Assembly (NCBI RefSeq): GCF_023278045.1
Contig: NZ_CP056783.1
Location: forward strand, 434,001 to 498,000
Length of the DNA: 64,000 bases
Direction of reading: 5' to 3'
Source: Flavobacterium sp. K5-23
GTDB taxonomy: Bacteria; Bacteroidota; Bacteroidia; Flavobacteriales; Flavobacteriaceae
The position numbers and the translations under genes were made by a program. Positions within the stretch are counted from its first letter, which is position 1. Each line of letters begins with the position of its first letter. Shown here piece after piece: positions 1,611 to 41,778 of the stretch. Under the pieces are notes generated by a model. That model was not told the DNA's origin. It ran no database searches and was given only the letters and a program-made list of their open reading frames with translations.

Positions 1611-2766
1611 TACCAAACGAAAATATAATATATACCAATTTTGATAATTGGTTTTTTTATGTTATATTTGGACTATATTATAAAAGTAATCATGGCGCAT
1701 GCAAAAATTTTGGTAATTAAGGAAACCGAAAAAGAAATAAAAAATCTGCTCAAACAATCTATTCCGTTTATTGGTCAACGTTTGAGAGTTCTGCTGATTT
1801 TGAAGCAAAACGAAAAAGTAGGGATTTCTAAACGTGAGGTTGCTAAATTAGCTGTGGTTGACCCTAATAGCGTTCAGAATTGGAGGACATTATACCTTAA
1901 TTCTGGAATTGAGGGTTTGATGAAGCATCAAAAAACAGGTTTTAAGCCGTCGGCTTTTAATGCTATTGAACACAATATGTTGGAAACAAAACTCAACGAC
2001 CCTCAAAATGGACTTCAAGGCTATGTTGAGCTTAAAGATTGGATTGAAAAAGAATCAGGAAGACTTTCAATTACAATACGTTGCTTTATTATTGCATCAG
2101 GAATTTTAAATCAAGTGTAAAAGTAGCCCGCAAAAGTCATCAAAAAGACGAAGATCAGGGAATCTCTTTTAAAAGACTTCGGACGAATCTGTCAAGAAAT
2201 AGCACTAAATACGGTGGGTGATTTTGACTCTGTAAACTTGTATTTTCAAGATGAATCGCGTTTTGGTTTGTTCACTCGAAACGGAAAATCAGTTACTGCT
2301 ATTAGTGTTAAGCCGATTTGTGCTTTCCAACAAGTTTTTAAATCAACTTGGCTTTCTGGAGCTTTTTCGCCCATAACTGGAGACCATTTTCAATTAATAC
2401 TCCCACATTGCAACGCTGATAATTTTCAAGTTTTTTTAGATAATTTCTCAAAGGAAAATCCGAAAGAACTCAAAATAATGGTGCTGGATAATGGAAGGTT
2501 TCATAAGGCAAAAAAATTAATCATTCCTGAAAATATTGTTTTGGTTTTTCTACCACCATATAGTCCAGAACTTAATCCCGCTGAAAAAATGTGGGCAAAA
2601 TACAAACGAGAATTTTCTAATAAATTTTATAATTCATTGGAAGATGTAGAAGATTTCATTACTAATGTCGTAAAAGCTACAAGCAAAAAAGAGGTAATGA
2701 GTATCTGTGGATATAGCTATGTATTTTTAGATAAAATTTGGGCCATATAATACATGTGTTTGGTAT
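1611..2766 (+). mobile_element. IS630-family insertion sequence, inner copy nested in the outer copy
   Basis: This is a second copy of the same element, 1,156 bp, inserted in the same orientation into the transposase gene of the outer copy. The target TA is duplicated at 1609-1610 and 2767-2768. Both ends carry the same terminal repeat as the outer copy. Compared with the outer copy it has shorter G and A runs (near 2058, 2140 and 2170) and lacks two further bases near 2140. Confidence 0.9.
1692..2750 (+). pseudogene. IS630-family transposase, inner copy (frameshifted)
   Basis: This is the transposase of the inner element. The helix-turn-helix region is intact from 1692. A missing G in the GGG run near 2058 shifts the frame after KESG, and translation ends at 2120. 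The catalytic part is open from about 2177 to 2750 in another frame and contains YFQDES, MVLDNGRFHK and LNPAEKMW, the three acidic positions of a DDE_3-type transposase. The damage is in homopolymers and one short indel, so sequencing error is a real alternative to decay. Some IS630 relatives make their transposase by programmed frameshifting, but the two copies are broken at different places, which argues against a single programmed site. Confidence 0.82.
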
Positions 2767-5497: not shown

Positions 5498-6145
5498 TTA
5501 TAAGAAATTAGAAATCAAAGTCTGATTCGTTTCCACTTTTACTGCTGTTGCAATGTTATTCCCATAAGTATAAGCCAGCACAACACCATTTATAAAAGGC
5601 AAATAACTAGGGCTACCCACAACTTTCAAGTCTTCTGTAAAATAAACGGTCAACTGCTGCTTATTAAATAGAGCTACCGCTTCATAACAAGAATAACCTA
5701 GTATTACCTTTTTCTTGTTAGTGAATTTCCATTGTACTACCTGAAGTTTCTCTGTCACTAAGTCATTGTTAATTTTCTTTACATAGGTATTTGTTTCGTA
5801 ATCCTTAATCAATTTTACAGCTGAATAGGATTTTGACACAGACAAGTCCTTTGCAAATAAAACATCCCCTGCTGTTCCATTAGTATTGATCATTCCCTTA
5901 TTTGTCTTCTCTTTAACTTGGAGCTTTATTTCAAAATAAACTTTATTATCCTGAATGGACATATAGGATTCCTCTTTAATACTTTCGCTTTGTTTTATTG
6001 CATTTGCTCTAATATAAGCGGGAAGACTTTTCAATGACTCTTCTTTAATAGTGTATTGTGTTTCGAATAAAATGGTAATGCCTGTTTGAGCATCGCTTTC
6101 AAAACAGAAAAAACTAAATAACACAAATAATAATACCTTTTTCAT
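5498..6145 (-). CDS. GLPGLI-family exported protein, divergent
   Basis: This is a 215-residue exported protein that appears to be a divergent member of the GLPGLI family (TIGR01200), which has no known function. The start is set at 6145 because a signal peptide begins there (MKKVLLFVLFSFF..ESDAQ); a longer frame would place 23 polar residues in front. The family's middle segment is recognisable as VLGYSCYEAVALF. The name motif is degenerate (FINGVVLAY instead of GLPGLIL). It lies 13 bases after another GLPGLI gene and 10 bases before the receptor pseudogene on the same strand, so the three form an operon. The family call rests on shared layout and context as well as the weak motif. Confidence 0.7.
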   Translation of the reverse strand: MKKVLLFVLFSFFCFESDAQTGITILFETQYTIKEESLKSLPAYIRANAIKQSESIKEESYMSIQDNKVYFEIKLQVKEKTNKGMINTNGTAGDVLFAKDLSVSKSYSAVKLIKDYETNTYVKKINNDLVTEKLQVVQWKFTNKKKVILGYSCYEAVALFNKQQLTVYFTEDLKVVGSPSYLPFINGVVLAYTYGNNIATAVKVETNQTLISNFL

Positions 6146-6158
6146 CTCTCTTAATGTT

Positions 6159-6929
6159 TTAATTATCCGCTTTAATGTGTACTGAATAGGTCTCGTGTTT
6201 CGCTCCAGATTCATCCGTATAGGATTTAGGTTTTAGCGCTTCAATTTTCATCTTATTCAACTTTTCTTTCGTTATAAAAGAAGCTTTTGCCGGAACTGAT
6301 TCTAACTGTATCTTTTTATCAAAAAACTCGATTTTAGTTACATAGATCACTTTCTTTTTAGATTCGACACTCAAAACTAAACCCGGAATAGAGTTCATAG
6401 AAAAAGGACCATCGATAACAGGAATCTCCTGCGTGTACCAATATTGTATGGTGTCATTTGCAGCAGTCATAGCATAGGCTGATTTACAAGTATACCCATC
6501 AATCGCTTTGGTCTTTTTATCATAGTGCAATTCATCTTTTGCAAATGGTACTTCAATATAGTATTCATTATCGTCTACTTCAGCGCTTTCAACACTCAAT
6601 TGCTTTGTAAAATCTTTCAAAACCCATACTTTAAAAGGCTTAAAGAAAGTCCCCGCATTTGTATATGTTGGAGTATTCTTCTCTTTTGAAACAATTACTT
6701 CTTCTTTTAAATTTACACTTTTAAACAAGGAAAAATCTCCATTATTTATGAGTTCAAATTTATTAGGTTTACTTAAAACCGTCCTAAAACCTTCACGATC
6801 TTCCTCCGGAAGCTGATTAAAAAAAGAATCTGAATACACTATTTTTTGTTCGTAAGTGATTTTGATGCTTTTTTGAGCGAATACTGAAATAGAAAATAAA
6901 GTCAAAATAACCAATACATACTGCTTCAT
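6159..6929 (-). CDS. GLPGLI-family exported protein
   Basis: This is a 256-residue exported protein of the GLPGLI family (TIGR01200; function unknown, largely confined to Bacteroidota). It has a signal peptide (MKQYVLVILTLFSISVFAQ). The family core is visible: a KAIDGYTCKSAYAM segment, an aromatic W-Y-T-Q-E-IPV stretch around residue 165, and the name motif as GPFSMNSIPGLVLSVE near residue 180. It is the first gene of a three-gene minus-strand unit with another GLPGLI protein and an outer-membrane receptor, the same order as at 22392-25984. A periplasmic or outer-membrane-associated role is inferred from the signal peptide and its neighbours. Confidence 0.88.
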   Translation of the reverse strand: MKQYVLVILTLFSISVFAQKSIKITYEQKIVYSDSFFNQLPEEDREGFRTVLSKPNKFELINNGDFSLFKSVNLKEEVIVSKEKNTPTYTNAGTFFKPFKVWVLKDFTKQLSVESAEVDDNEYYIEVPFAKDELHYDKKTKAIDGYTCKSAYAMTAANDTIQYWYTQEIPVIDGPFSMNSIPGLVLSVESKKKVIYVTKIEFFDKKIQLESVPAKASFITKEKLNKMKIEALKPKSYTDESGAKHETYSVHIKADN

Positions 6930-21331: not shown

Positions 21332-21808
21332 TTAGTCGCGTGAAATTTCTAAAATCTCGAATTTAAGCACTCCGTTAGGAACCGTAATTTCGGCTACATC
21401 CCCTACTGATTTACCTAGCAATCCTCTACCTATAGGCGAAGTCACTGATATTTTTCCGGTTTTCAAGTCGGCTTCACTTTCAGCAACAAGAGTATATTTC
21501 ATTTCCATTCCATTGGACTGGTTCTTGATTTTAACATTCGACAAAACCAATACTTTAGAAAGATCAAGATGCGTTTCATCAATAAGCCTTGCGTTAGAAT
21601 GAACTTCTTCCAGCTTAGCGATTCTCATCTCTAACATTCCTTGCGCTTCTTTGGCCGCATCGTATTCTGCATTTTCAGATAAATCACCTTTATCTCTTGC
21701 TTCAGCAATATCTGCAGAAGCCTTTGGACGCATCACACTTTTTAAATAATCTAATTCTTCTCTTAATTTTTTTAATCCTTCTGCGGTATAATAAGATATT
21801 GCGCTCAT
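21332..21808 (-). CDS. greA: Transcription elongation factor GreA
   Basis: GreA enters the secondary channel of RNA polymerase and stimulates cleavage of backtracked RNA. The 158-residue protein has the N-terminal coiled coil with the acidic tip (ARDKGDLSENAEYDAAKE) and the C-terminal globular domain (SPIGRGLLGKSVGD). A hairpin with a T-run lies in its leader. Confidence 0.97.
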   Translation of the reverse strand: MSAISYYTAEGLKKLREELDYLKSVMRPKASADIAEARDKGDLSENAEYDAAKEAQGMLEMRIAKLEEVHSNARLIDETHLDLSKVLVLSNVKIKNQSNGMEMKYTLVAESEADLKTGKISVTSPIGRGLLGKSVGDVAEITVPNGVLKFEILEISRD

Positions 21809-21832
21809 AATTTGGGTCGTTTATATAAATAG

Positions 21833-21857
21833 AAAAAATCCCATCAGGACGGGATTT
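21833..21857 (-). promoter_or_regulatory. Terminator-like hairpin in the greA leader
   Basis: On the minus strand AAATCCC and GGGATTT enclose an 8-base loop, followed by a run of T, 25 bases before the greA start. No gene reading into it lies upstream on this strand. A -7-like TATCTTTG at 21872-21865 would start the transcript right at the hairpin. Confidence 0.5.
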
Positions 21858-21934
21858 CTTTCCACAAAGATACTATTAATTATTTTTAGTCTATAATTAT
21901 ATGTTAATCATATCTAAGTCAAAGTTAAATAATT

Positions 21935-21942
21935 TAAATTTG
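21935..21942 (+). promoter_or_regulatory. Probable promoter -7 element for the lipoprotein gene
   Basis: TAAATTTG matches TAnnTTTG and lies 31 bases before the start of the lipoprotein gene at 21974. Confidence 0.4.
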
Positions 21943-21973
21943 TTTCACTAATACTTTTTATTTATTTTGAATT

Positions 21974-22387
21974 ATGAAAAAACGTCTCCTTTTACTTCTT
22001 ATGCTCCCTTTATTATGGGCTTGTAGTAATAACAGTCCGAATACTAATAATCCGTATTTACCTAATTATACCTTCACGATAGACATCAACACTAACTTGC
22101 CTGCGTATTCCAGTCTTAAATTCCCTAGTAACGCTATTTATTATCCTGGCGAGGGCGTAAAGGGGATAATTGTTTTCAATACCGGTAGCGGATACAATGC
22201 ATTTGATGCCGCCTGCCCTAATCAAACACTCAGTAGCTGCTCGACAATGACCATAAAAGGGATTAATGTAATATGCGCCTGCGACTCGGCTGAATACAGT
22301 TTATTTACCGGACAGGGTGGCTTACAATATCCTTTGAAGCAATACCGTGTGGAGGTAAACGGAGCTGTTATTCGGGTTTATAATTAA
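21974..22387 (+). CDS. Lipoprotein with degenerate Rieske-like fold
   Basis: This 137-residue lipoprotein has a lipobox ending LLWACS, so Cys17 would be lipidated. The rest resembles a Rieske 2Fe-2S domain in layout. A first metal-loop-like segment FDAACPNQ stands where C-x-H is expected, a second CACDSAEYSLFTGQG where C-x2-H is expected, and the end YRVEVNGAVIRVYN is typical. Both cluster His are replaced (Asn and Asp), so a normal Rieske cluster could not form. Extra Cys residues (SSCSTM, VICACD) might bind another metal or make disulfides. The fold assignment is by eye. Confidence 0.6.
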   Translation: MKKRLLLLLMLPLLWACSNNSPNTNNPYLPNYTFTIDINTNLPAYSSLKFPSNAIYYPGEGVKGIIVFNTGSGYNAFDAACPNQTLSSCSTMTIKGINVICACDSAEYSLFTGQGGLQYPLKQYRVEVNGAVIRVYN

Positions 22388-22391
22388 TTAA

Positions 22392-25058
22392 TTACAACTT
22401 ATAACTCACTGAGAATAAAAACACTCTAGGCAACACATACGTTGTACGTTCGCTTATCATATAATCCGAAAAGGAATAATCATTTTTCAGTTTGTTATCC
22501 AATAAATTATTGACCGACAATTCAAAACCGAAAGGGCTGTTCTTTTTTTGATAGCGAAGCGCTGTATTGGCTATATCATAAAAATTACTCTGATTGTTAT
22601 TGTTCGTGTTTTTCAAGTTTTCATACGACAATTTAAGCGTCCAAAACTTAAAGAAAGTAGCTTCGAAGTCAGAATTAAAAGCATCTGTCTCGAAATTTGA
22701 TTTGGTTAAACCTGAAAACTGACTGTAGCCTTTATTGTATCCAACACTGAAATCTGGCCATTTCCTGTAGGCTGTTTTAAAAGTAATCCCAACATTTTGA
22801 CTTGTTCTATCATTTGCAGTTGTGATTGCATTAACTGTTTGCAGGTAATTAAACCAACTTAAACGTGTATTTAGCTTAACACTAAAACGGTAGATTTTTT
22901 TAGTAAAAGATCCGTTAGCACTGTAATTCGTTTCAGGATTATCACTTAAAATGGGGATGTTAAACTGGTTTATTCCATCCAGCTCAATTTCGTTTCTAAA
23001 GGCTTTTATTTTCTTGGTGTAATTCAGCATTCCGTTCCAAGTAACTCCTCGATACATATTCATTTTTGAATACCTTAAACTGGCAGTATGGAATTTTTCA
23101 TTTTGCAAAAGCGCATTCCCTTTGTAAACCAAATTATAATTTTGGAGCGTGAATTGATTCGCCAGTTGGCTTACTTCCGGAAAATCGTTATTAATTTTAT
23201 AATTGAAATGCAAAGACTCCGATTTATTAAACTCATATTCACTGTCCCATTGCGGTTGAAAAAGGGTTTTGGACAATGTATAATCCGTTGCAACTTGATT
23301 TGTCGTCAAATGATACCAATGTAAATACAATCCAGGCTTATTCGTCCATTTTCCTATTCTAAACTTGTACTCCAGACCTACATAAGCGTCGTTTAATTGA
23401 TACTTTACTTGATTCCCAAAACCGGCAAACGCAAAATCATTTACGGCATCATTTGTCAACAACTGTTTCTCAGCAGTATTAAAACGAGCCGTTGCAAAAT
23501 TATTACCCACATTAGTATACAAATGATTGAAATTATTAAGAATCCAATAATGCTTGAACAAAGCATCCACACTATTCGTTTTTACCTTCTTGACCTGAGT
23601 AACGGTGTAGGTCAAATCATCCTGTAGCGGAATTAACCCTCCCAAGAACGGCTGATTCGTAAACCAGTTATTTTGCGGCCTGTTGTCATCATAAGCCTGA
23701 TTGACCACAAAAGTGGTGGTGTGATGCAAGTTGTAGCTTTTATGCCACTCCATGTATTGTTTTATCGAAGTATTATCGGCTTTGGAAATACTTTCAAAGA
23801 GACTGGAATTGATGTTTGTAATAGAATTTATTGTTCGAGACAAGTCATTTGTGCTCGATTGGTATTGTGCGTTGTAATACCATTTTTCTTTTTTATTGGG
23901 CGAATAATCCAGTTTCACATTCCCTAATCCTAATACGGATTGATTGCTGCCGTTTTGTAATTTATTTTCGAAAGCAATACTGCTGTTATTCAAATACTCG
24001 TTATTGCTTTCCGTTTTTGATGCGGTAAACACTTTAGAAAATATACCAAAACCTGAAATAGATAACTTAGGCGAGGTATCGTGACTGAAATTTACGGCTC
24101 CAAATTGTGATTTATTCTCCACCACGTCCTTATTGTCATTAGCAAAAGAATACAAGTTAGTCAATGCTTTCCTGCCCGAAAGAAAAGAGCTCATTCCCCC
24201 GCCAAAACGCATTAAATCATCAAACGTAAAGGTTCTCTTCCCGATGTTGTTCCTATCACCTATGAAACTCAAATTGGTTTTGGGCGCATAATAAAACAAG
24301 GCGGTATGCCCCAGATAAAAACCGTTATCAGCGTTACCTACCTCAGCACCGGCCTCAACATCCCCAAAAACAAATTTCTTTTTCTCTTTTTTAAGTTTTA
24401 CGTTTATTGCCAAGTCATCACTATCAGAAACCTGCTTCATAAAACCCACTTCGTTAAAGTTGTCAATAACTTCAATTTTATCCAGTGCATTCGCCGGAAT
24501 GTTCTCGACCGCTAACTTCGTGCCTCCTCCAAAGAATGATTTACCCTCGACAAGCATTTTGGTCACTTTCTTTCCTTGTACCGTTACCCCACCGTTTTTA
24601 TCGACCTCAACACCAGGCAGTTTTTCCAGGATTTCTTTCATCTTGCGTTCGTTTCCGTTGGCAAAACTTTTCACATCAAAAATCAGGGTGTCTTTTTTTA
24701 TGATAATGGGTTTGAACTCGTGCTTAATGACAATTTCCTTGAGCTGCTCGCCTGAGGGTTTAAGTTTAAAATCGTGAGTTGCCACAGTAGTATTAGCCTC
24801 TAACATTACCATTTCCTCCACAAAACCAATATAGGAAACCGTGATTTCGTATTTTACCTCTTTGTCGAGTTCTAGTCTATAACGGCCCCTATTATCAGCA
24901 ATGGCAAATTTCAGGCTTGCTTTTTCCTGCAATGGTTTGGCAATTACGTTGGCGGATTCCAGCGGCTTATTGACATCATCAGAAACCACACCGGTTATGG
25001 TATGGGTTTGGGAGTAAGAAATATTGGCAAAAAATAAAAATAGTAGGATTCTGAACAT
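22392..25058 (-). CDS. Outer-membrane receptor, CarboxypepD_reg plus beta-barrel
   Basis: This 888-residue TonB-receptor-like outer-membrane protein has a signal peptide ending NISYSQ. A carboxypeptidase-regulatory-like domain follows (residues about 20-105: ITGVVSDDVNKPLESANVIA, ITVSYIGFVEE). Next comes a plug-like region with EILEKLPGVEVDKNGGVTVQGK and a long barrel ending in an aromatic VFLFSVSYKL. It is homologous to the broken receptor at 587-5487. It is the last gene of a unit whose upstream members are GLPGLI proteins. The 5' end of the gene is duplicated at 27278-27442. The transported substrate, if any, is unknown and no TonB box was assigned. Confidence 0.9.
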   Translation of the reverse strand: MFRILLFLFFANISYSQTHTITGVVSDDVNKPLESANVIAKPLQEKASLKFAIADNRGRYRLELDKEVKYEITVSYIGFVEEMVMLEANTTVATHDFKLKPSGEQLKEIVIKHEFKPIIIKKDTLIFDVKSFANGNERKMKEILEKLPGVEVDKNGGVTVQGKKVTKMLVEGKSFFGGGTKLAVENIPANALDKIEVIDNFNEVGFMKQVSDSDDLAINVKLKKEKKKFVFGDVEAGAEVGNADNGFYLGHTALFYYAPKTNLSFIGDRNNIGKRTFTFDDLMRFGGGMSSFLSGRKALTNLYSFANDNKDVVENKSQFGAVNFSHDTSPKLSISGFGIFSKVFTASKTESNNEYLNNSSIAFENKLQNGSNQSVLGLGNVKLDYSPNKKEKWYYNAQYQSSTNDLSRTINSITNINSSLFESISKADNTSIKQYMEWHKSYNLHHTTTFVVNQAYDDNRPQNNWFTNQPFLGGLIPLQDDLTYTVTQVKKVKTNSVDALFKHYWILNNFNHLYTNVGNNFATARFNTAEKQLLTNDAVNDFAFAGFGNQVKYQLNDAYVGLEYKFRIGKWTNKPGLYLHWYHLTTNQVATDYTLSKTLFQPQWDSEYEFNKSESLHFNYKINNDFPEVSQLANQFTLQNYNLVYKGNALLQNEKFHTASLRYSKMNMYRGVTWNGMLNYTKKIKAFRNEIELDGINQFNIPILSDNPETNYSANGSFTKKIYRFSVKLNTRLSWFNYLQTVNAITTANDRTSQNVGITFKTAYRKWPDFSVGYNKGYSQFSGLTKSNFETDAFNSDFEATFFKFWTLKLSYENLKNTNNNNQSNFYDIANTALRYQKKNSPFGFELSVNNLLDNKLKNDYSFSDYMISERTTYVLPRVFLFSVSYKL

Positions 25059-25184
25059 AAGGGTTAAGAGATGAATTTATTTGGAATTTGGTTGACAAGA
25101 CTACATTGATGGTTTACATTCCCATTTGTACTTTCATCTTTTTATCATACTCTTCTTTTGGTATGGTTTTACCTTTTGGAAAAT
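24931..25184 (-). repeat. 254-bp direct repeat, copy 1 (receptor 5' end plus GLPGLI 3' end)
   Basis: This segment holds the first 128 bases of the receptor gene, the spacer and the last codons of a GLPGLI gene. It matches 27315-27568 without gaps and with few substitutions. The fixed offset of 2,384 bases shows a tandem duplication of the locus. Confidence 0.92.
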
Positions 25185-25242
25185 CTATAAAAACCTCCTT
25201 GCTGCATAGAACTATATTAGTGGCTAAATAATTATAATTGTC
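25114..25242 (-). pseudogene. Remnant 3' end of a GLPGLI gene
   Basis: In the frame that ends at 25114 the sequence encodes a tail ending IDFPKGKTIPKEEYDK and then KMKVQMGM, the same C-terminus as the intact GLPGLI gene at 27498. A few more residues upstream (NYLATNIVLCSKEV) align in style with TFYATSIHISQDKEL of that gene, after which a stop appears. It is a 5'-truncated relic left by the duplication, between the GLPGLI gene at 25289 and the receptor. Confidence 0.85.
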
Positions 25243-25288
25243 TTAGAGGGATACATTGAACTAATAAATATTTTGAAATTCATTCCGG

Positions 25289-25984
25289 TTAATTACTGTT
25301 TTTCTTTTCTATTAAATCATTCAATTCCTCTTCTTCAATTACTCTATATTTTTTTAATTCTTCAATGACAGTATCGTTTACATTCAATTGTATAGTTTTG
25401 GCTCCATAAACGGCATCTTTAGTTTGTAGTTCTAGAATCAATCCTGGCAAGTTTCCATAATTAAGCGGTCCATAAGGAAATGGAATTTGAGGACAATACC
25501 AAGCCGTAATAGGGTGTCTAAATGTTTTTTCTTTATGTACTACAATATTTTCCGTGGTGGCTTTGTAGCAAAGATAATTGTCAATTAATTTGGTTTCATT
25601 TAATAAAATCCAGTTATCAACTACTCCTTTTTTTTCTATATAATCACCAATTCCTATAGAACTTCCTTCTCTATATATCGAGTCTTTTTTAGTTAAAACT
25701 CTCCCTGAATAATTAATCTTTACATCCCCTAATTCTGCAGCTTTATCATCTGAATACATTTTCTTTTCTTTGACAAATAATGATTTTTCTTTATTGAATT
25801 TTAGTTTGAAATCAAATTCTTTAATTACAGAATAAAAATTTACATTCATTGACAGCATCATTTTTTCTAATTGGCTATCTTTATTTTCGGTAACGGTAAC
25901 ACTATAATTAACAACACCTCCTTTTAGCTGTGCATTACTGCTAACCACAACCATAAACAACAGTAATAATGTATATATTTTCAT
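25289..25984 (-). CDS. GLPGLI-family exported protein
   Basis: This 231-residue exported GLPGLI-family protein has a signal peptide (MKIYTLLLLFMVVVSSNAQ). The family core is clear: LNETKLIDNYLCYKAT, then TAWYCPQIPFPYGPLNYG and NLPGLILELQTKDAVYGA. It is closer to the gene at 28322 than to its direct neighbour (shared NETKLIDNYLCYKAT and TAWYCP), which fits duplication of a multi-gene unit. The tail is charged (EEEELNDLIEKKNSN). It lies 74 bases after the GLPGLI gene at 26059 and upstream of the receptor. Function is unknown. Confidence 0.9.
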   Translation of the reverse strand: MKIYTLLLLFMVVVSSNAQLKGGVVNYSVTVTENKDSQLEKMMLSMNVNFYSVIKEFDFKLKFNKEKSLFVKEKKMYSDDKAAELGDVKINYSGRVLTKKDSIYREGSSIGIGDYIEKKGVVDNWILLNETKLIDNYLCYKATTENIVVHKEKTFRHPITAWYCPQIPFPYGPLNYGNLPGLILELQTKDAVYGAKTIQLNVNDTVIEELKKYRVIEEEELNDLIEKKNSN

Positions 25985-26058
25985 ATTTTAAAGATTAAAA
26001 TAAGCAAGTGGATATTAATAATAAATGACATCAAAAATTTAAATTTATTAGCAACAAA

Positions 26059-26808
26059 CTATTTGAAATTTTCAAAACTTTTTATTGTAAAATCAGCGTA
26101 TTCTTTCTCAGTAACAAACTTTCCTTGAACTGGTTTGTTCAAATTAATATTAGCCTTTTTAATATCAAATGTTACGCTTGTTGCATAAAAATAGCTGATT
26201 CCATTTAAACTTCCCTCAAGAACAAGTCCGGGCAAGCCATCTAAACCCAAAGGCCCAAAAGGGGCTGCAATCTCAGGAGCAAACCAAACGGTTGAGTTAA
26301 AAACCAGCTTTTTATTACGAATAACATCAAATTCTTCCCATTGACAATTTGCTTTATAACATTTGTAACCACTTATAGTTTTAGTTTCAGTTGAAATTTG
26401 CCACTTATACTGCTCAAAGGGCATAATGATATTTAGTATTTCACCAAACTCCTCAGTATGTTTAATCTTAGTACCCGCAATGATATCTTTATAATATTGG
26501 CCTTCTGCAAAAACTGCCGCTAATTGATAAGAAATATCATTATTCAGCTCTAATTTATCAATCATTTTAAAAACACTTTTACTTTTAGTGTAATACAATC
26601 CACATTCAATTTTATCAAATGCACTAATCATTTCTTCATATTGTAAATTTTTTGGAGAATTATTTACATTAACTTGTTGCATTTCTGCCATTTTATAAAC
26701 AACATAATTTACAACATCGCTTACACCTTTATTATCATTCTTATCTTGACTACATACAACACTAATGTTAAAGACCAAGAGTATAAATACCAATGCTTTT
26801 AATTTCAT
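26059..26808 (-). CDS. GLPGLI-family exported protein
   Basis: This is a 249-residue exported GLPGLI-family protein. The start at 26808 puts a signal peptide first (MKLKALVFILLVFNISVVCSQ); an in-frame upstream extension is unlikely. The motif region reads WFAPEIAAPFGPLGLDG then LPGLVLEGSL, preceded by KTISGYKCYKANC. It follows the small exported protein gene at 26888 by 79 bases and is the first GLPGLI gene of unit 2. Codon use and AT content resemble its neighbours. Confidence 0.9.
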   Translation of the reverse strand: MKLKALVFILLVFNISVVCSQDKNDNKGVSDVVNYVVYKMAEMQQVNVNNSPKNLQYEEMISAFDKIECGLYYTKSKSVFKMIDKLELNNDISYQLAAVFAEGQYYKDIIAGTKIKHTEEFGEILNIIMPFEQYKWQISTETKTISGYKCYKANCQWEEFDVIRNKKLVFNSTVWFAPEIAAPFGPLGLDGLPGLVLEGSLNGISYFYATSVTFDIKKANINLNKPVQGKFVTEKEYADFTIKSFENFK

Positions 26809-26887
26809 AATAAATTTATAAAAAATAAACAAATTTGACAAAAATCAAATTTGTTTATATATTAATAATATAGAACTAGACTTTCAT

Positions 26888-27127
26888 CTATGCTTCAGTG
26901 ATTTTATTCTCTTGCATACATTTATCATAATTTATCTTATAAATCATTTGCCATTGAGCTGGGCTATAGCATCTGCCACTAGATGCTTCCGTTTCACTTG
27001 TTTTCTGCGCAGCAGTTGTAACGCAATCAGTAAACAAAATCTTTTTCTCACTAACTTCTTTAGTTCCCGCAAAACTTGTTGCACTAAACGCCACCACTGC
27101 AAGAGCGGTAAATACTAATTTTTTCAT
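26888..27127 (-). CDS. Small exported cysteine-containing protein, copy in unit 2
   Basis: This 79-residue precursor has a signal peptide (MKKLVFTALAVVAFSATSFA) nearly identical to that of the gene at 29099. The mature part of about 58 residues has Cys35, Cys53 and Cys70 and a TDC motif shared with the other copy; the rest has diverged. No known family was recognised. It heads a unit followed by two GLPGLI genes and the receptor, and shares a 161-bp promoter/leader/signal repeat with 29099. It may be the secreted substrate or ligand of the system, which is an inference. Confidence 0.8.
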   Translation of the reverse strand: MKKLVFTALAVVAFSATSFAGTKEVSEKKILFTDCVTTAAQKTSETEASSGRCYSPAQWQMIYKINYDKCMQENKITEA

Positions 27128-27243
27128 TTTTAATTCTGGTTTAAATTTATACTATTTTTCTTGGTTAACCATCACAAATATGAAAAAAAAAAAAAACTAA
27201 ATTAAAGAATACGCTTACTATTTTAACGTTTATTTAACAAGTG
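27083..27243 (-). repeat. 161-bp promoter/leader/signal-peptide repeat, copy 1
   Basis: This segment spans the upstream region, leader and first 15 codons of the small protein gene and matches 29297-29457 without gaps, with few substitutions. Identity stops within the signal peptide, while the mature protein has diverged. Confidence 0.92.
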
Positions 27244-27277
27244 AATATTTATACCTAAATTAAGGGAATTGCCGCAA

Positions 27278-27442
27278 TTAACATAAACCACAACTGAGTC
27301 GTACATTTTCTTGAAGTGGCTTAGCAATTACGTTGGCGGATTCCAGCGGTTTATTAATATCGTCAGAAACCACAGCGGTTAGGGTATGGGTTTGGGAAAA
27401 AGAAATGTTGGCAAAAAATAAAAATAGTAGGATTCTGAACAT
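27278..27442 (-). pseudogene. Truncated 5' end of the receptor gene
   Basis: From 27442 the sequence encodes the same start as the receptor at 25058 (MFRILLFLFFANISFSQ, then a VVSDDINKPLESANVIAKPL segment) and then diverges to a stop at 27278, giving 54 residues. It follows the GLPGLI gene at 27498, exactly where the full receptor stands in the original order. It is the receptor remnant of unit 1 after the tandem duplication. Confidence 0.88.
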
Positions 27443-27568
27443 AAGGGTAAAGAGATGATTTTATTTGGAATTTGGTTGACAAGACTACATTGATGGTTTA
27501 CATTCCCATTTGTACTTTCATCTTTTTATCATACTCTTCTTTTGGTATGGTTTTACCTTTTGGAAAAT
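27315..27568 (-). repeat. 254-bp direct repeat, copy 2
   Basis: This is the partner of 24931-25184. Here the GLPGLI part belongs to an intact gene and the receptor part is truncated, while in copy 1 the reverse is true. That is the pattern left by an unequal tandem duplication. Confidence 0.92.
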
Positions 27569-28220
27569 CAATTTGGAGTTCTTTATCTTGCGAGATATGT
27601 ATAGATGTCGCATAAAAAGTGGTCTCTAAATCTTGCACTTCTAATATAAGACCTGGCAAGCCATTAAAATATTTTGGGCCGTAGCTGTAAGGCAAACTTG
27701 GAGCAAACCAGGTTGTAATAGGTCTGTTCCTGTTTTCACCAGCTCTATTGACAAATTTGAATAGATAGATCGCTTTGTAACATAGATAATCCCCAATCAT
27801 CTTACTCTCTGTTGTGATTTCCCATTCTAACTTTTTATGTGGTTTGTTAATTAATTGTCCGTTCTCTATACGCTCTATGGCCGTATTGGTGCTTTTATCA
27901 TAAAAATAATCACTCCCGTTAGTCACTATAAAGGCCATCGATCTGGCAAATTTTCTTAAACTTCTATCTCCATCCTCAGTAATTAAATAACTGTCCAAAA
28001 CAGAACTTGATTTTTCATTATTAAAACTCAACGTAACAGTTTGTTTGTTGGCAATTTCAATTGTAGCTGCATTTAATTCGTTGAATTCTGATTTTTTGTT
28101 ATCTTCCCCATATCCTACTAATTGAATTTTATAAATCACTTTACCGGAAAGAGCTTGGCTGTAACAGCCCAACATTGTTGTTAAGGCGATATAAAAGAAT
28201 AATATTTTTAATTTTTTCAA
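27498..28220 (-). CDS. GLPGLI-family exported protein
   Basis: This 240-residue protein is a typical GLPGLI-family member: MIGDYLCYKAIYLF, then PITTWFAPSLPYSYGPKYFN and GLPGLILEVQDLETTFYAT. The signal sequence ends in MLGCYSQ and could be read either as a signal peptidase I site or as a lipobox around LGC, so a lipoprotein is possible. The C-terminus, ending in KMKVQMGM, is copied in the remnant at 25114. It is the second GLPGLI gene of unit 1 and is followed by the truncated receptor. Confidence 0.92.
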   Translation of the reverse strand: MKKLKILFFYIALTTMLGCYSQALSGKVIYKIQLVGYGEDNKKSEFNELNAATIEIANKQTVTLSFNNEKSSSVLDSYLITEDGDRSLRKFARSMAFIVTNGSDYFYDKSTNTAIERIENGQLINKPHKKLEWEITTESKMIGDYLCYKAIYLFKFVNRAGENRNRPITTWFAPSLPYSYGPKYFNGLPGLILEVQDLETTFYATSIHISQDKELQIDFPKGKTIPKEEYDKKMKVQMGM

Positions 28221-28321
28221 TGTTATAAATTTTAATAAGTATTAATTAATTTTTGGAAAGATTTGATGTTTAAAGATAAACTGTATATCCGCTTTGCTTA
28301 ATATTTGAATTTTTAAGCAAT

Positions 28322-29026
28322 CTAAAACTCATTGAATTTGTCAAGAGCTTCGTCTATTTCTCTATCATTTAATATTTTTATTTTCTCTAACGATTTAATG
28401 TCAAAATCTAATTCGCTGTCAAGCTTTATACTTTTTGCGCCAAATACAACATTTCTTACTTGGAGTTCTAAAACTAAACCGGGTAAATTCCCATAGCCAT
28501 TCGGACCATAGGGATAAGGTAATTCAGGGCAATACCAAGCTGTCACTGGATGGTTAAAAGTTTTTACGTCATTAATAACTTTTTTTACATTAGTAGCTTT
28601 ATAGCACAAATAATTATCTATTAATTTTGTCTCATTACTTAAAACCCAATTGTTTTTTAAATTACCCTCTGTATAAATATTTTTACCCAATAAAACATTT
28701 TGAGATACTATTTTATCTTTTAAAGTGTAAACAATCCCCGAATAACTTGATGTTGCCAAAATAAAATTAGCAGAACCAGCATTACTATCAATTTCTAAAT
28801 TTTCTTTAATTAAAAATTTAGAACCGTTTTTTGTTATAATTAATTGAAATGATACTTTTCCACAATCAACAATAGCGTTTTCAAAATAGCTCCTCAGCGT
28901 TGAATTATTTTTAAATAAATCTGGCTCGTTTTGAATTATCAACCCATATTCTACATAAATATTTTTCTCTTGTCCATAGCCAAGAGTTGATAATAAAATT
29001 GTTAAAAATAGAATTTTTATTTTCAT
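28322..29026 (-). CDS. GLPGLI-family exported protein
   Basis: This 234-residue exported GLPGLI-family protein begins at 29026, where a signal peptide begins (MKIKILFLTILLSTLGYGQ). The core reads NETKLIDNYLCYKAT, TAWYCPELPYPYGPNGYG and NLPGLVLELQVRNVVFGA, very close to the gene at 25289. It is the first GLPGLI gene of unit 1, downstream of the small protein at 29099. The tail (DREIDEALDKFNEF) is acidic and may be helical. Function is unknown. Confidence 0.9.
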   Translation of the reverse strand: MKIKILFLTILLSTLGYGQEKNIYVEYGLIIQNEPDLFKNNSTLRSYFENAIVDCGKVSFQLIITKNGSKFLIKENLEIDSNAGSANFILATSSYSGIVYTLKDKIVSQNVLLGKNIYTEGNLKNNWVLSNETKLIDNYLCYKATNVKKVINDVKTFNHPVTAWYCPELPYPYGPNGYGNLPGLVLELQVRNVVFGAKSIKLDSELDFDIKSLEKIKILNDREIDEALDKFNEF

Positions 29027-29098
29027 ATTCCGTATATTAAAACACACCTAAATCAATGAAATTGACGTGTTTATAAATTGCATTAATTTTAGTTATTA

Positions 29099-29341
29099 TT
29101 ATTCTTTTGTCAACCCCATACACATAAAATATACTGAATATGACATCCTAGACGCATCTTCTTTGCTGAATCCAGCAGCTCTAGCATCAACATATGCAAC
29201 AAACTTTGCCGCATTACAATCTGTTATAACAAAAACTTTTTTCATAATTATTTTTTTTGCATTATCTGTGGCTCGCACACTCGCCATTGTAACTCCACTA
29301 AACGCTACCACTGCAACAGCGGTAAATACTAATTTTTTCAT
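29099..29341 (-). CDS. Small exported cysteine-containing protein, copy in unit 1
   Basis: This 80-residue precursor begins MKKLVFTAVAVVAFS, like the gene at 26888, with probable cleavage after about residue 20. The mature part has Cys42 in the shared TDC motif and Cys74 near the end, enough for one disulfide or for modification. No known family was recognised. It is the first gene of unit 1 and is preceded by the 161-bp repeat with its own promoter. A conserved signal with a diverged mature part recalls families of secreted peptides under diversifying selection. Confidence 0.8.
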   Translation of the reverse strand: MKKLVFTAVAVVAFSGVTMASVRATDNAKKIIMKKVFVITDCNAAKFVAYVDARAAGFSKEDASRMSYSVYFMCMGLTKE

Positions 29342-29457
29342 TTTTAATTCTGGTTTAAATTTATACTATTTTTCTTGGTTAACCATCACAAACATAAAAA
29401 AAAATAAAAACTAAATTAAAGAATAAGCTTACTATTTTAACGTTTATTTAACGAGTA
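29297..29457 (-). repeat. 161-bp promoter/leader/signal-peptide repeat, copy 2
   Basis: This is the partner of 27083-27243 at a constant offset of 2,214 bases. On the minus strand it contains a TATGTTTG element (29396-29389) that fits TAnnTTTG; the other copy has CATATTTG at that place. Confidence 0.92.
29389..29396 (-). promoter_or_regulatory. Probable promoter -7 element of GLPGLI unit 1
   Basis: TATGTTTG on the minus strand lies about 47 bases before the start codon of the small exported protein, inside the conserved repeat. An A/T-rich tract precedes it; no TTG -33 was found. Confidence 0.5.
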
Positions 29458-29480
29458 TATTCTATTTGCTTGTGTTTAGA

Positions 29481-29518
29481 CAAAAAAAAATCCTGACAGC
29501 ATAACCGTCAGGATTTTT
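29481..29518. terminator. Bidirectional terminator downstream of the thiamine receptor
   Basis: The stem AAAATCCTGAC / GTCAGGATTTT with an AGCATAACC-type loop and T/A runs on both sides lies just after the receptor stop codon (29540) and before the GLPGLI promoter. It separates the two minus-strand units. Confidence 0.88.
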
Positions 29519-29539
29519 ACAATAAAAAAAGTTTCAACT

Positions 29540-31789
29540 TTAGAACTTTAACGTCAAGCCCAGAAGGAAATTAATTCCAGCCTGAGGATAATATCCTGCT
29601 CCTTCAATAGTTGTAATTTGGTTTGCATTGCTCCAGTTGTCATCATAGGTGTAGAAAAAACCATTAGACTCATATTTGTAATCAAAAACATTGTTTACCA
29701 ATCCTGATAATAGTATTGATTTAAAAACAGACTTAGGTATAAACTCATAAGAAACATTCAAGTCGTTTACAAAGTAAGACTTTAGTTTAGAACCCTCTGA
29801 GTCGATATTCCCCATGTATTGCTCTCCAACAATTTTCGACAAAAATGACATTTGTAAATTAGCCATAGGCATATACGTAATGATGTTTCCAGCAATAAAA
29901 TTAGGCGAGTACGCTATATTTGTGTTACCTAACGCTGTTAACATACCATCACGTTCAAAATGGAAATCTTTATTCTTATTAGTACTAATAGTAACATTAG
30001 GGCGAATGATTAAATTATCCAAAACCGCAACGGTAGCGTCAATCTCTAATCCTAAACGGTAACTGTCTCCACTGTTTTTGCGTATAGGTGCACCTACATC
30101 ATCCAGTTCTCCAGTAAGAATCAGTTGGTCTTTGTATGCCATATAATACACGTTAGCATTCAATTTCACTTTTGAAGTGCTATGACGCAATCCCAGTTCA
30201 AAATCATTTAGTTTTTCCGGTTTTGGTGTTCCGTTTTTGTAATCAGTTCTATTAGGTTCGCGATTCGCTCTTGCATAAGAAGCATACAGTTGGTTTTTTG
30301 AATCAATATCAAAATTCACTCCTGCTTTTGGGTTAAAGAAATTAAAATTATCGTTTACCCTACCCGTTTCAACAGCATTAGCTTTGTAATGCACGTTTCT
30401 AACTTGTAAATCCCCAAAAAGACTCCATTGACCTGTCACTTGGTAATTTGCTTTCGCAAAAATGTTTCCGTCCGTTTTAGTTGCGAAATCATCATAATAA
30501 CGATCTCCTAATTCGCTTTTTGAAGCATTACGAGCCCAAATCACTTTTCCAAAATGACTTCCTTCATATTTATTATATCCTCCTCCAAAAATCACATCCA
30601 GCTTTTCATCCTTGTAATTAGCCGAAAAAGTAGTTCCGTAGAAATCATTGTCCAACCATTTTTGACGAATTAAATCGGTTTTATTGATTGTTGTTCCGCC
30701 TATAACTATTGGAGTTAATCCATAAGCCGAGAATTTGGCGTTCTCTTTGTAGTTTTCATAATATCCTTTCCCTTTAGTGTAAAAAACCGCTAGGTTAGTA
30801 CTCCAATTATTCGAAAATTTCTCATTCCAATGCAATTGCGAATGATCTTGTTGGTAATTATCGGTTTCATTATCGTAGAATCTGATTTTCCCAAACTCAT
30901 CTGTAAACATTCCCGCAGTATTGAAGGTACGGTCATTTTCCAGTTTATCTAAATCCTCTAAACCATTCCATGACTGGTAGGTTTTTTCTTTTCCACCAAA
31001 AACCAATGCTTTGATTAAAGTGGTATTTCCTATGTAAGTCCCTTGCAAGAAATACGATTTTAAATCAGAACTGGCGCGATCAATAAATCCATCAGACTTT
31101 AAAGCTGACAAACGTCCAGCCAATTCAAAATGATTGTTTATTAAACCGGTACTGAATTTTACGGTATGTTTTCGAGTATTGAAACTCCCTATAGAATTAG
31201 AAATCTCCCCATTACTTTCTTTAGCATAACTATCCGTAAGCATGTTCAGGCTTGCGCCAAATGCTCCCGACCCATTTGTAGATGTTCCTACACCGCGTTG
31301 CAACTGTAAACTTTCAACAGAAGAAGCGAAATCAGGCATATTTACCCAATAAGTACCATGACTTTCGGAGTCATTGTATGGAATTCCGTTTATGGTAACG
31401 TTAACCCTTGTTGCATCGCTACCACGAACACGAATGCCAGTGTATCCCACACCATTTCCAGCATCAGAGGTAGTAACTACTGATGGAAGGTAATTCATTA
31501 AAATAGGGATGTCTTGGCCTAGATTTCTAAACTTGATGTCCTTTTTGTTTAGATTACTGAAACTTACAGGCGTTTTCTCAGTAACACGAACAGCCGAAAC
31601 CAAAACCTCATCGAGTTTATTGATTTTAGTGGTGTCTTTTACTTGAGAAAAAGAAGATAGAGAACAGAAAATAGAAAATAGAAATAAGAAAAATGTCCTG
31701 TGATTTACACTTTTTTGCAACTTTGAGACTTTGCTCCCGAAATTTCGAGATTGAGACTTTGCAACTTTGAGACTAATAATAGTATTCAT
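29540..31789 (-). CDS. TonB-dependent outer-membrane receptor, predicted thiamine receptor
   Basis: This 749-residue TonB-dependent receptor has a signal peptide ending LSSFSQ, the plug domain (VRGSDATRVNVTINGIPYN, YWVNMPDFASSVESLQLQRG) and a beta-barrel ending in FLLGLTLKF. A TPP riboswitch lies 110 bases upstream, so the gene should be switched off when thiamine pyrophosphate is high. TPP-controlled outer-membrane receptors in Bacteroidota have been predicted to import thiamine. The inner-membrane partner is not in this window. The N-terminal 25 residues before the hydrophobic core are encoded by repeated intergenic words (around 31720-31789), so the true start may lie further inside. Confidence 0.88.
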   Translation of the reverse strand: MNTIISLKVAKSQSRNFGSKVSKLQKSVNHRTFFLFLFSIFCSLSSFSQVKDTTKINKLDEVLVSAVRVTEKTPVSFSNLNKKDIKFRNLGQDIPILMNYLPSVVTTSDAGNGVGYTGIRVRGSDATRVNVTINGIPYNDSESHGTYWVNMPDFASSVESLQLQRGVGTSTNGSGAFGASLNMLTDSYAKESNGEISNSIGSFNTRKHTVKFSTGLINNHFELAGRLSALKSDGFIDRASSDLKSYFLQGTYIGNTTLIKALVFGGKEKTYQSWNGLEDLDKLENDRTFNTAGMFTDEFGKIRFYDNETDNYQQDHSQLHWNEKFSNNWSTNLAVFYTKGKGYYENYKENAKFSAYGLTPIVIGGTTINKTDLIRQKWLDNDFYGTTFSANYKDEKLDVIFGGGYNKYEGSHFGKVIWARNASKSELGDRYYDDFATKTDGNIFAKANYQVTGQWSLFGDLQVRNVHYKANAVETGRVNDNFNFFNPKAGVNFDIDSKNQLYASYARANREPNRTDYKNGTPKPEKLNDFELGLRHSTSKVKLNANVYYMAYKDQLILTGELDDVGAPIRKNSGDSYRLGLEIDATVAVLDNLIIRPNVTISTNKNKDFHFERDGMLTALGNTNIAYSPNFIAGNIITYMPMANLQMSFLSKIVGEQYMGNIDSEGSKLKSYFVNDLNVSYEFIPKSVFKSILLSGLVNNVFDYKYESNGFFYTYDDNWSNANQITTIEGAGYYPQAGINFLLGLTLKF

Positions 31790-41178: not shown

Positions 41179-41778
41179 ATGAAAAACTACACACTCCTTT
41201 TATTCTTATTATTAACCACGGCACTTTTTGCCCAAGATAATCTTCGAAACGAATATCAGAAAAACCTGTTTGACGAGGCACAAAAACAACTTGAAGTTCG
41301 CGATTACGTAGCATCAGCAAGATTATTCACATTTGTTTATAATATGGATCAAAAATCTGAAATCTCTCAAATCGCCATACAAAAAGCAGATTCTTTAAAA
41401 TCTATTTTTAGAAATAGCAAGGTTAATAGTTTAAAAGGGAATTGGAAATGGATTTATAAAGACGCGAATTGGGCTATCCGAGAAGATGGCTTAGTTGGAA
41501 AAATGATTACTATTAATACAGATGAGATCCTGTTTTACGAATTGTATCGTAAATCAAAAAAATGGCAGCTAGTAAAAACCGAAAAGATTGTTTTTTCCGA
41601 AAATCCAGAGTCACATTCTTTTACAGATTTTTTATATTCAAACAGCCAAGTTTGGGATTACAACATTAATGAAAATTCTGGGGAGTTAACAGCTTTTTAT
41701 ATTGGAGACAAAACAAAAGAAGGCTTTTCTGAAATGGTTTGCGGAAATCCAGTAATTTATTATTTTAAATTGCAATAA
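41179..41778 (+). CDS. Hypothetical exported protein
   Basis: This 199-residue protein has a signal peptide (MKNYTLLLFLLLTTALFAQ). Residues 25-75 look helical and repeat-like (EAQKQLEVRDYVASARLFTF), as in a short tetratricopeptide-type hairpin. From about residue 80 the sequence is beta-rich with a lipocalin-like beginning (LKGNWKWIYKDANW). I recognise no family. It is probably periplasmic and stands alone between ahcY and the ribosomal protein genes. Confidence 0.75.
   Translation: MKNYTLLLFLLLTTALFAQDNLRNEYQKNLFDEAQKQLEVRDYVASARLFTFVYNMDQKSEISQIAIQKADSLKSIFRNSKVNSLKGNWKWIYKDANWAIREDGLVGKMITINTDEILFYELYRKSKKWQLVKTEKIVFSENPESHSFTDFLYSNSQVWDYNINENSGELTAFYIGDKTKEGFSEMVCGNPVIYYFKLQ

Follow-up and report, generated by a model that had tools for sequence, protein, structure and literature searches.

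A locus of Flavobacterium sp. K5-23, found in a window of 64,000 nt (the whole stretch of DNA analysed, contig NZ_CP056783.1, positions 434,001-498,000), is very probably a polymorphic cassette system, both in its anatomy and in its cassette nature. The sequence shows the unit to be a cassette comprising a promoter region, a gene for a mini-protein with a signal peptide and a gene for a GLPGLI protein, with arrays of such cassettes ending in one receptor gene, whose product has the modelled fold of a TonB-dependent transporter, and whole cassettes coming and going between close relatives. The locus may represent an undescribed polymorphic recognition or weapon system of the Flavobacteriaceae, combining exported two-cysteine mini-proteins, their own GLPGLI partners with the PNGase-bowl (LolA-like) fold and one TonB-dependent receptor, with signal-peptide-coding DNA as the site of cassette exchange, a reading given a little under an even chance.

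The main locus (22392-29457) lies on the minus strand throughout, and the gene order read in the first-pass annotation (small protein, GLPGLI, GLPGLI, receptor, with one unit truncated and one complete) was confirmed from the ORF coordinates. A terminator-like hairpin (29486-29518) separates the first cassette from the TonB-dependent receptor gene upstream of it; such hairpins matched four sites against 3.5 expected by shuffling, so that the match by itself proves little. The first cassette opens with copy 1 of repeat D2 (29296-29456), which covers the promoter region and first 15 codons of small gene 1, followed by mini-protein 1 (29099-29341), a small exported protein of 80 aa with two cysteines in its mature part. 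Adjoining this are GLPGLI 1a (28322-29026; 102.8 bits to TIGR01200), whose ORF opens with GTG at 29047 and has its first ATG at 29026, and GLPGLI 1b (27498-28220; 127.5 bits), for which a whole signal peptide is obtained from a TTG start. Copy 1 of repeat D1 (27297-27572) spans the 3′ end of GLPGLI 1b, an intergenic stretch and a receptor head, with the truncated receptor present as a remnant of 54 codons (27278-27442) showing 93.6% DNA identity over 267 nt to the head of the full receptor. The second unit repeats the arrangement with D2 copy 2 (27082-27242), again promoter region and first 15 codons but of small gene 2, mini-protein 2 (26888-27127; small, exported, 79 aa, three cysteines), GLPGLI 2a (26059-26808; 108.7 bits; ORF opening with TTG at 26841, first ATG at 26808) and GLPGLI 2b (25289-25984; 127.4 bits), the latter 25-40% identical to the other three GLPGLI proteins of its locus. 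D1 copy 2 (24913-25188) then joins the remnant of a GLPGLI 3′ end to the head of the intact receptor (22392-25058), a protein of 888 aa with a SusC-type N-terminal extension, plug region and beta-barrel. The two D2 copies are 96% identical over 161 nt, sharing an identical 37-base stretch (mean of 0 in shuffles), and the two D1 copies 92% identical over 276 nt. Neither repeat featured in the earlier reading of the sequence.

A first locus, also on the minus strand, follows the order GLPGLI, GLPGLI, receptor without the small protein, as had been proposed. Its GLPGLI genes lie at 6159-6929 (87.4 bits) and 5498-6214 (61.9 bits; the likely start being inside the ORF, at MKKVLL), and no small exported ORF was found ahead of them. 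The receptor (3175-5487) consists of the N-terminal 770 codons broken by an insertion sequence, with transposase reading frames sitting between it and its C-terminal piece (587-862) and with profile matches at genome positions 437193-439484 and 434590-434904. Two loci of the same order had been recorded; the genome in fact holds five, each with GLPGLI genes and then a receptor, together with one receptor of related lineage without GLPGLI (L168). All six GLPGLI ORFs named at the outset, four in the main and two in the first locus, score 61.9-127.5 bits against the curated TIGR01200 cut-off of 50 bits, and all ten GLPGLI genes of the genome exceed that cut-off. The ORFs are 213-296 aa long and, together with the modelled bowl described below, these lengths indicate that the catalytic PNGase domain is absent.

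A survey of other genomes bore out the idea that GLPGLI genes and this receptor subfamily belong together, the two co-occurring far above background; the refuting outcome named beforehand, a lack of enrichment, did not come about. The receptor adjoins the GLPGLI cluster in 68 of 78 cases in the genus set and 26 of 40 in a second set, the latter hand-picked from phylum matches with some loci chosen for their many GLPGLI genes and three (L165-L167) from the same genus. Genus clusters numbered 83, of which three, all from G054, were left out, and eight long PNGase-like GLPGLI genes were held apart from the cluster counts. Among the 10/78 genus clusters without an adjoining receptor, one, in the window, is a weak match outside TIGR01200 and some stand at contig ends. 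In the second set, 13 of the 14/40 belong to two genomes of a single genus; these have 12 and 22 GLPGLI matches, most of which stand alone in the 12 stretches retrieved. These exceptions contradict the stricter rule that every GLPGLI cluster has an adjoining receptor. At L156 a receptor is present, but further off. A third set was retrieved by similarity to the GLPGLI proteins of the window, so that the variable kind is over-represented in it, and the sets overlap in that L182 is the same place as L074, L174 as L092 and L187 as L164. Chance co-location of unrelated genes, for which the small size of the genes speaks and nothing more, is refuted by these adjacency counts and by the positional enrichment described below, and its probability is put close to nil. 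We infer that GLPGLI, receptor and mini-protein act jointly.

The intact receptor matches PF13620/PF13715 over cut-off, while Pfam Plug stays below cut-off by sequence (E 0.24 for 22392-25058, 1.9e-4 for 3175-5487). Its structure model (pLDDT 84.9) places a plug domain within a large beta-barrel with Cir, FecA, FhuA and BtuB as the best structural matches, so by modelled fold the receptor appears to be a TonB-dependent transporter, its energising by TonB being putative. Receptor profile A1 was built from five GLPGLI-linked receptors, with a later profile grown from the same seeds, and the high A1 scores of those five are therefore circular; the fold and Pfam results are independent of A1 and its descendants. 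Fold and domain order are shared with SusC-type TonB-dependent transporters, but no SusD-like gene was recognised beside the receptor in the window, the partner here being GLPGLI. The eleven nearest receptors, all from Flavobacterium, are 59-79% identical to it.

Pfam lists the GLPGLI family (TIGR01200/Porph_ging, PF09697) as protein of unknown function, and the literature covered, which takes in few subscription journals, names its members within lists of regulated genes. GLPGLI genes were present in 36 of 41 sampled genus genomes and over cut-off in 28 of 118 sampled phylum genomes; GLPGLI 28322-29026 gave no match in phage and plasmid collections at E 1e-3. The model of GLPGLI 1a (pLDDT 94.3) corresponds to the N-terminal bowl-like (NBL) domain of PNGase F-II type enzymes (4R4Z, 7ZGN) alone, differing from these enzymes in having no glycosidase part and in standing alone beside a receptor. 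A bowl fold is also known from LolA, LolB, RseB and MucB, and modelled GLPGLI appears to resemble the carriers and sensors (LolA, RseB). A rather improbable alternative makes GLPGLI a LolA/RseB-like periplasmic carrier that escorts its matched mini-protein to the receptor; the receptor would then deliver the mini-protein onto or across the outer membrane, where it would be a variable part of the surface, for instance against phages or for surface variation.

Genes for small exported Cys proteins proved strongly enriched directly before GLPGLI genes when positional enrichment was computed, with signal peptides judged by a simple hydrophobicity rule. In a search independent of GLPGLI, all 15 mini-protein matches (two being the window's own), from 11 genomes with a match among 101, adjoined a GLPGLI ORF. 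This enrichment upholds the view that small exported Cys proteins go with GLPGLI genes. Many GLPGLI-receptor loci, however, carry no small gene, and receptor lineages differ in this respect, which places the small protein outside the basic GLPGLI-receptor pair. Under a strict rule, 17 of 113 GLPGLI genes in the genus set are preceded by a mini-protein gene, while in the variable clade (loci of 41 receptors) 41 of 104 GLPGLI genes of at least 150 aa are so preceded under the strict rule and 51 under a loose one. On a receptor tree made with FastTree only and having long branches, the core clade shows a small gene at 0/53 loci and the clade of the window at 25/36, by a strict labelling rule that misses some, such as L065.

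Within loci the leader is conserved and the mature part divergent (median identity 0.83 against 0.24), as had been noted. The TDC motif is indeed common to both small ORFs of the window but is not invariant in an alignment of 18 relatives, where it is the first and last cysteine that are invariant. Between cysteines the spacing is 31 in 23 of 71 mini-proteins and 25-34 in 59, the set being 73 mini-proteins minus two without a cysteine after residue 20. For relatives of mini-protein 1 in two other species the mature part gave dN/dS of 0.21 and 0.27 at dS of 1.3 and 1.7, which suggests that in one mini-protein type the mature part is under purifying selection across three species, with dS near saturation. 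It could be argued that GLPGLI and receptor cooperate while the small ORFs are incidental or decaying, hitch-hiking on a recombining promoter-leader repeat, as the low strict count in the genus set and the presence of some broken mini-protein genes would allow, but the dN/dS of about 0.2-0.3, the retained cysteine spacing and the co-variation with GLPGLI make this highly improbable.

No family exceeded its cut-off in a Pfam/NCBIfam scan of 12 mini-proteins, DUF6520 falling below its own. A plasmid search with mini-protein 2 gave three matches, all weak and all to the first 35 residues of the query, which were taken as chance. A profile of 18 mini-proteins run against 199 genomes of the family hit 27 places spread over 24 genomes. 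The window accounts for two of these; most of the other 25 match the signal peptide only or are unrelated exported proteins, two (L253 and L274, both genome G379) adjoin clear GLPGLI ORFs, and at L259 and L266 the GLPGLI profile scores no more than 14 and 17 bits. The leader was rejected as a mark of the family, since beyond the genus most of what the profile picked up was unrelated exported proteins; taken alone, the leader is a generic flavobacterial signal peptide. Outside the genus, mini-proteins are accordingly recognised by place and cysteine pattern rather than by this search. The idea of a modified peptide gained no support from the neighbours in the window, among whose annotated genes no modification enzyme was found; mapping of the other loci relied solely on ORF length and two profiles.

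Mini-protein similarity follows GLPGLI similarity with a Pearson correlation of 0.562 over 2592 between-locus pairs, a value reached by none of 2000 within-locus re-pairings (mean 0.383, largest 0.554). The set of 78 pairs had been reduced to 75 by removal of L221, L230 and L241, core-type loci in which the upstream ORF is another protein, and to 73 for redundancy. Each exported gene is paired with its own partner gene, with cassette linkage giving part of the signal. GLPGLI 28322 is 60% (L092) and 62% (L172) identical to the GLPGLI beside a matching mini-protein, against 32% and 24% to the other two GLPGLI proteins in L092. Mean identity is only 17% in the N-terminal half of GLPGLI, which thus varies much more than the GLPGLI stretch, at 43%. 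Mini-protein similarity tracks the one half as well as the other, with partial correlations of 0.37 and 0.26, so that neither can be named as the contact; placing the contact in one half was dropped for this reason. In L172 a single array carries five unrelated mature mini-protein sequences.

Under the proposed mechanism the mini-protein would be exported and adopt the shape of a helical hairpin that a disulphide closes, the bowl-shaped GLPGLI would reside in the periplasm and bind its own mini-protein, and the constant receptor would serve all of them as the shared entrance in the outer membrane. That mini-protein and GLPGLI bind each other directly is considered moderately probable. The mini-protein might instead be a secreted carrier or signal (metal- or cofactor-binding, or a kin signal) re-imported or sensed via the receptor, with GLPGLI as the periplasmic binder of each ligand. 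The receptor model, matching siderophore, haemophore and colicin receptors, is in keeping with this, GLPGLI-receptor pairs without a mini-protein fit a general uptake system, and each paired cassette would provide a ligand together with the binder that matches it. Such a reading is nevertheless rather unlikely, as one receptor must take several unrelated mature sequences (five in L172), no metal-binding pattern beyond the cysteines was seen by eye, and the frequent absence of the ligand gene where the binder is kept goes unexplained.

The likeliest use of the cassettes, tentatively held as a candidate function and clearly short of an even chance, is antagonism or self-recognition between close relatives, in which the mini-protein would act on neighbours having the receptor type without the matching GLPGLI, and GLPGLI would shield its carrier by holding the cognate mini-protein. 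Speaking for antagonism are the excess of GLPGLI over mini-protein genes, the position of all 15 independently found mini-protein matches beside a GLPGLI ORF, the loss of leader and start from a mini-protein gene whose GLPGLI gene stays intact in F. erciyesense and F. turcicum, the co-variation, the cassette turnover, the constant receptor and the purifying selection; against it, the GLPGLI fold is unlike a known immunity protein and no route out of the periplasm was seen. GLPGLI-receptor pairs lacking any mini-protein are frequent and broadly retained, as in the core clade, which means that shielding from mini-proteins cannot be the basic role of GLPGLI. A rule that mini-protein genes never occur without a working GLPGLI was weakened by four intact ones preceding a GLPGLI frame of under 200 aa (one in L198, three in L226), which slightly lowers confidence in antagonism. 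In L226 the receptor, too, is broken up into a pair of frames, and sequencing error is possible for the broken frames there.

Among known systems, a precedent for antagonism is offered by the Bacteroidales secreted antimicrobial proteins (BSAP), for which a secreted antagonist (toxin) gene is reported next to a gene for a replacement surface target (PMC4999547). BSAPs have a MACPF domain, whereas the 12 mini-proteins scanned had no Pfam match over cut-off and, unlike BSAPs, mini-proteins are arrayed together with partner genes. Toxin-immunity cassettes form arrays in CDI and T6SS orphan modules. These are alike on paper in their paired variable genes, their orphan partners and the cut-short heads of the constant gene that lie between modules, but here neither a toxin domain nor a known delivery machine was seen, and the signal peptides of the mini-proteins are Sec-type. 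The survey gives GLPGLI a receptor lineage, a fold and, in some lineages, a matched exported mini-protein, turning its function into a directly testable question. If the recognition or weapon reading is true it would provide the first function for the GLPGLI family, and antagonism would add to the Bacteroidota a novel class of weapon, small and secreted; should antagonism prove false, the locus would remain a clear example of cassettes being exchanged via signal-peptide-coding DNA.

Cassette turnover can be followed among three relatives. F. glaciei carries a 1,570-bp cassette missing in F. erciyesense, where the flanks are 98.7% and 93.5% identical, and missing also in F. turcicum, which carries another. 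The first mini-protein gene has lost leader and start in both F. erciyesense and F. turcicum while its GLPGLI gene is intact, the block holding the two being 98.7-98.9% identical to F. glaciei. Cassettes have a promoter element in common, for which the control comprised 254 GLPGLI genes without a small gene, with genera unmatched. One cassette junction falls within the leader-coding repeat, which would explain alike leaders beside differing mature parts.

The gene order that the first-pass annotation had described for the GLPGLI-receptor loci is correct for the sequence of the window, and all six of its GLPGLI proteins exceed the TIGR01200 cut-off in profile searches. On the minus strand the cassette locus (22392..29457) runs from a terminator-like hairpin through small gene 1 (29099..29341), encoding a small exported cysteine-containing protein (mini-protein), GLPGLI 1a (28322..29026), GLPGLI 1b (27498..28220) and a 54-codon receptor head into a second unit of small gene 2 (26888..27127), GLPGLI 2a (26059..26808), GLPGLI 2b (25289..25984) and an intact 888-aa receptor (22392..25058) with carboxypeptidase-regulatory-like N-terminal domains that exceed the Pfam cut-off. 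The 3.49-Mb genome of Flavobacterium sp. K5-23 holds five loci with ten TIGR01200 genes, each locus having one to four GLPGLI genes followed by a receptor of one and the same subfamily. Searches of this genome with each small protein gave, at low E-values, only the two window copies. An insertion sequence that carries HTH and DDE_3 transposase parts splits the first-locus receptor (587-5487). It is itself present in overlapping near-identical copies, seen as direct repeats of 300 nt at 903/1608 and 2302/2760, a layout that would fit insertion of one element into a second or recombination between them. Elsewhere in the window (41179-41778) lies a gene for a 199-aa exported-looking protein with a weak match (E 3e-4) to the GLPGLI profile built here and no Pfam match.

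The first-pass annotation had proposed a genome survey of this association, and both receptors and mini-protein genes proved to be enriched beside GLPGLI genes. TIGR01200 was present in 36/41 Flavobacterium genomes, K5-23 included. In the genus set, comprising 80 of the 83 clusters outside K5-23 with gene order mapped together with its own loci, a receptor directly adjoined 68/78 GLPGLI clusters. Under a strict rule (a signal peptide followed by two or more cysteines, in a slot ≤350 bp upstream), a small gene preceded 17/113 GLPGLI genes versus 0/492 other genes of ≥150 aa in these loci (71 receptors, 135 exported, 286 others). A second set comprised 40 selected loci that were mostly more distant, with three of the same genus and, besides these, one K5-23 receptor locus; here the counts were 5/53 versus 3/310, and a receptor adjoined GLPGLI in 26/40, with 13 of the 14 misses coming from two genomes of one genus. 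Of all small exported ORFs whose cysteines span 24-40, 17/19, 6/7 and 51/56 occupied the slot upstream of a GLPGLI gene, and this slot amounts to 2.2, 1.9 and 3.5% of the sequence in the genus set, the second set and a third set that over-represents the variable kind; three of the eight outside it were further members, adjoining either a second small gene or a broken GLPGLI gene. With small protein 2 as query, a search independent of GLPGLI, 15 places were matched in 11/101 genus genomes (two being the window's own), and a GLPGLI ORF adjoined 15/15. Genomes G112 and G193 (one genus, same order; L150-L161) have 12 and 22 GLPGLI matches, most of those in the 12 fetched stretches lacking a neighbouring receptor. 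GLPGLI-matching proteins of 549-564 aa, a length as in PNGase F-II type enzymes, occur without an adjoining receptor at L061, L066, L070, L072, L080, L094, L102 and L112.

Arrays of small-GLPGLI pairs ending in a single receptor are clear in many of the 80 named loci, with five pairs in F. xanthum (L172), two in an uncultured Tenacibaculum (L180) and four in an uncultured Polaribacter (L202). Receptor-head remnants lie between cassettes in the window (93.6% DNA identity to the intact head over 267 nt), twice in F. aquatile (86-87% over 101-107 nt) and, by ORF profile, in L172, L008 and L010. On a FastTree phylogeny of 145 receptors, which has long branches, strict-rule small genes accompanied 25/36 receptors of the window's clade, 4/5 of a related clade and 7/13 of a third, with none in the core clade (53 receptors) or in a 24-member clade of mainly receptor-then-GLPGLI order. 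Given these counts and the 19 changes of the small-gene label on the tree versus a shuffled mean of 33.8 (0/500 shuffles as low), small genes are mostly tied to particular receptor lineages, with frequent gain and loss. GLPGLI genes lacking a small gene are common, only 41/104 in the loci of 41 variable-clade receptors having one by the strict rule and 51/104 by a loose rule. The GLPGLI-receptor pair without a mini-protein is the commoner form and points to a more general binding or transport role; it leaves room for ligand uptake or signalling, a function only slightly less likely than the one preferred below, and for cargo display, which we consider unlikely. In another receptor lineage (L065, L095, L127, L126, L067, L123) the slot ahead of GLPGLI is taken by small exported proteins of a different kind, most of which have adjacent cysteine pairs.

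Across 73 non-redundant mini-protein/GLPGLI pairs, within-locus median identity was 83% for the leader, 24% for the mature part and 19% for the cysteine core (36, 36 and 35 comparisons). The mature part is 39-108 residues long (median 63), with two cysteines after residue 20 in 45 mini-proteins, three in 13, four in 13 and none in 2; first-to-last cysteine spacing is 31 in 23/71 and 25-34 in 59/71, suggesting a two-helix hairpin closed by a disulphide. Twelve mini-proteins scanned against Pfam and NCBIfam gave no match over cut-off. The mature part of one type in three species is under purifying selection (dN/dS 0.20-0.27, dS 1.3-1.7). Mature mini-protein similarity tracks that of the next GLPGLI across loci (Pearson 0.562; 0/2000 within-locus re-pairings as high). 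The mini-protein 1 type occurs in three species, each time beside a GLPGLI that shares about 60% identity with GLPGLI 1a; in one such array the remaining GLPGLI proteins share 24-32%. Since the two genes sit on one cassette, linkage accounts for part of this co-variation, which therefore shows that mini-protein and GLPGLI are a unit of inheritance and only suggests that the one binds the other. Contrary to the pairing, four intact mini-protein genes precede a GLPGLI frame of <200 aa (one in L198, three in L226).

Cassettes turn over before a constant receptor. In the window, promoter-leader (96%) and GLPGLI-tail/receptor-head (92%) repeats flank diverged contents. A 1,570-bp cassette of F. glaciei (L174) is absent from F. 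erciyesense (L173), with flanks 98.7% and 93.5% identical, and is bounded by copies, 85% identical, of a roughly 95-bp repeat that covers the start region and leader codons. The single F. erciyesense copy begins like the first repeat and continues like the second, which is the signature of recombination inside the signal-peptide-coding stretch; by sequence comparison, which gives no direction, the difference would fit cassette loss or gain alike. The same cassette is missing from F. turcicum (L169), where another extra cassette, about 1.3 kb long, precedes the receptor. Both F. erciyesense and F. turcicum have lost the leader start of the first mini-protein gene and keep its GLPGLI gene intact.

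In published work, as far as accessible, GLPGLI genes appear in lists of regulated genes from Riemerella and Porphyromonas; the literature within reach of our searches yielded no account that pairs GLPGLI with either a receptor or small exported proteins. The mini-protein is probably exported and disulphide-bonded, and GLPGLI probably periplasmic. We tentatively prefer a role in antagonism or self-recognition among relatives in which GLPGLI would be the protective partner, since partner genes often occur with no mini-protein gene, mini-proteins without an intact partner were seen only beside broken GLPGLI frames, and cassette content differs between close relatives. Such a use would have arisen from a more general GLPGLI-receptor binding or transport role, the pair alone being commoner.

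Both small genes of the window are preceded by an identical 37-base element (27142-27178 and 29356-29392) that contains a GGTTAACC palindrome. A like element lies 40-43 bp before the start codon of 13/73 small genes, all from Flavobacterium, and, across the three sets, before 1/254 GLPGLI genes that lack a small gene, a control not matched by genus; it may be a common control site. The cassette locus (within 21332-31789) seems to share one genomic position across several Flavobacterium genomes. An exported protein of 137 or 138 aa without a Pfam family follows the receptor in opposite orientation in L049, L092, L110, L191 and L223, and is itself followed by a greA-length ORF in L049, L092 and L110; an ORF of 725-731 aa lies upstream in L049, L110 and L191, the annotation of both ORFs coming from the window and their recognition elsewhere from length.
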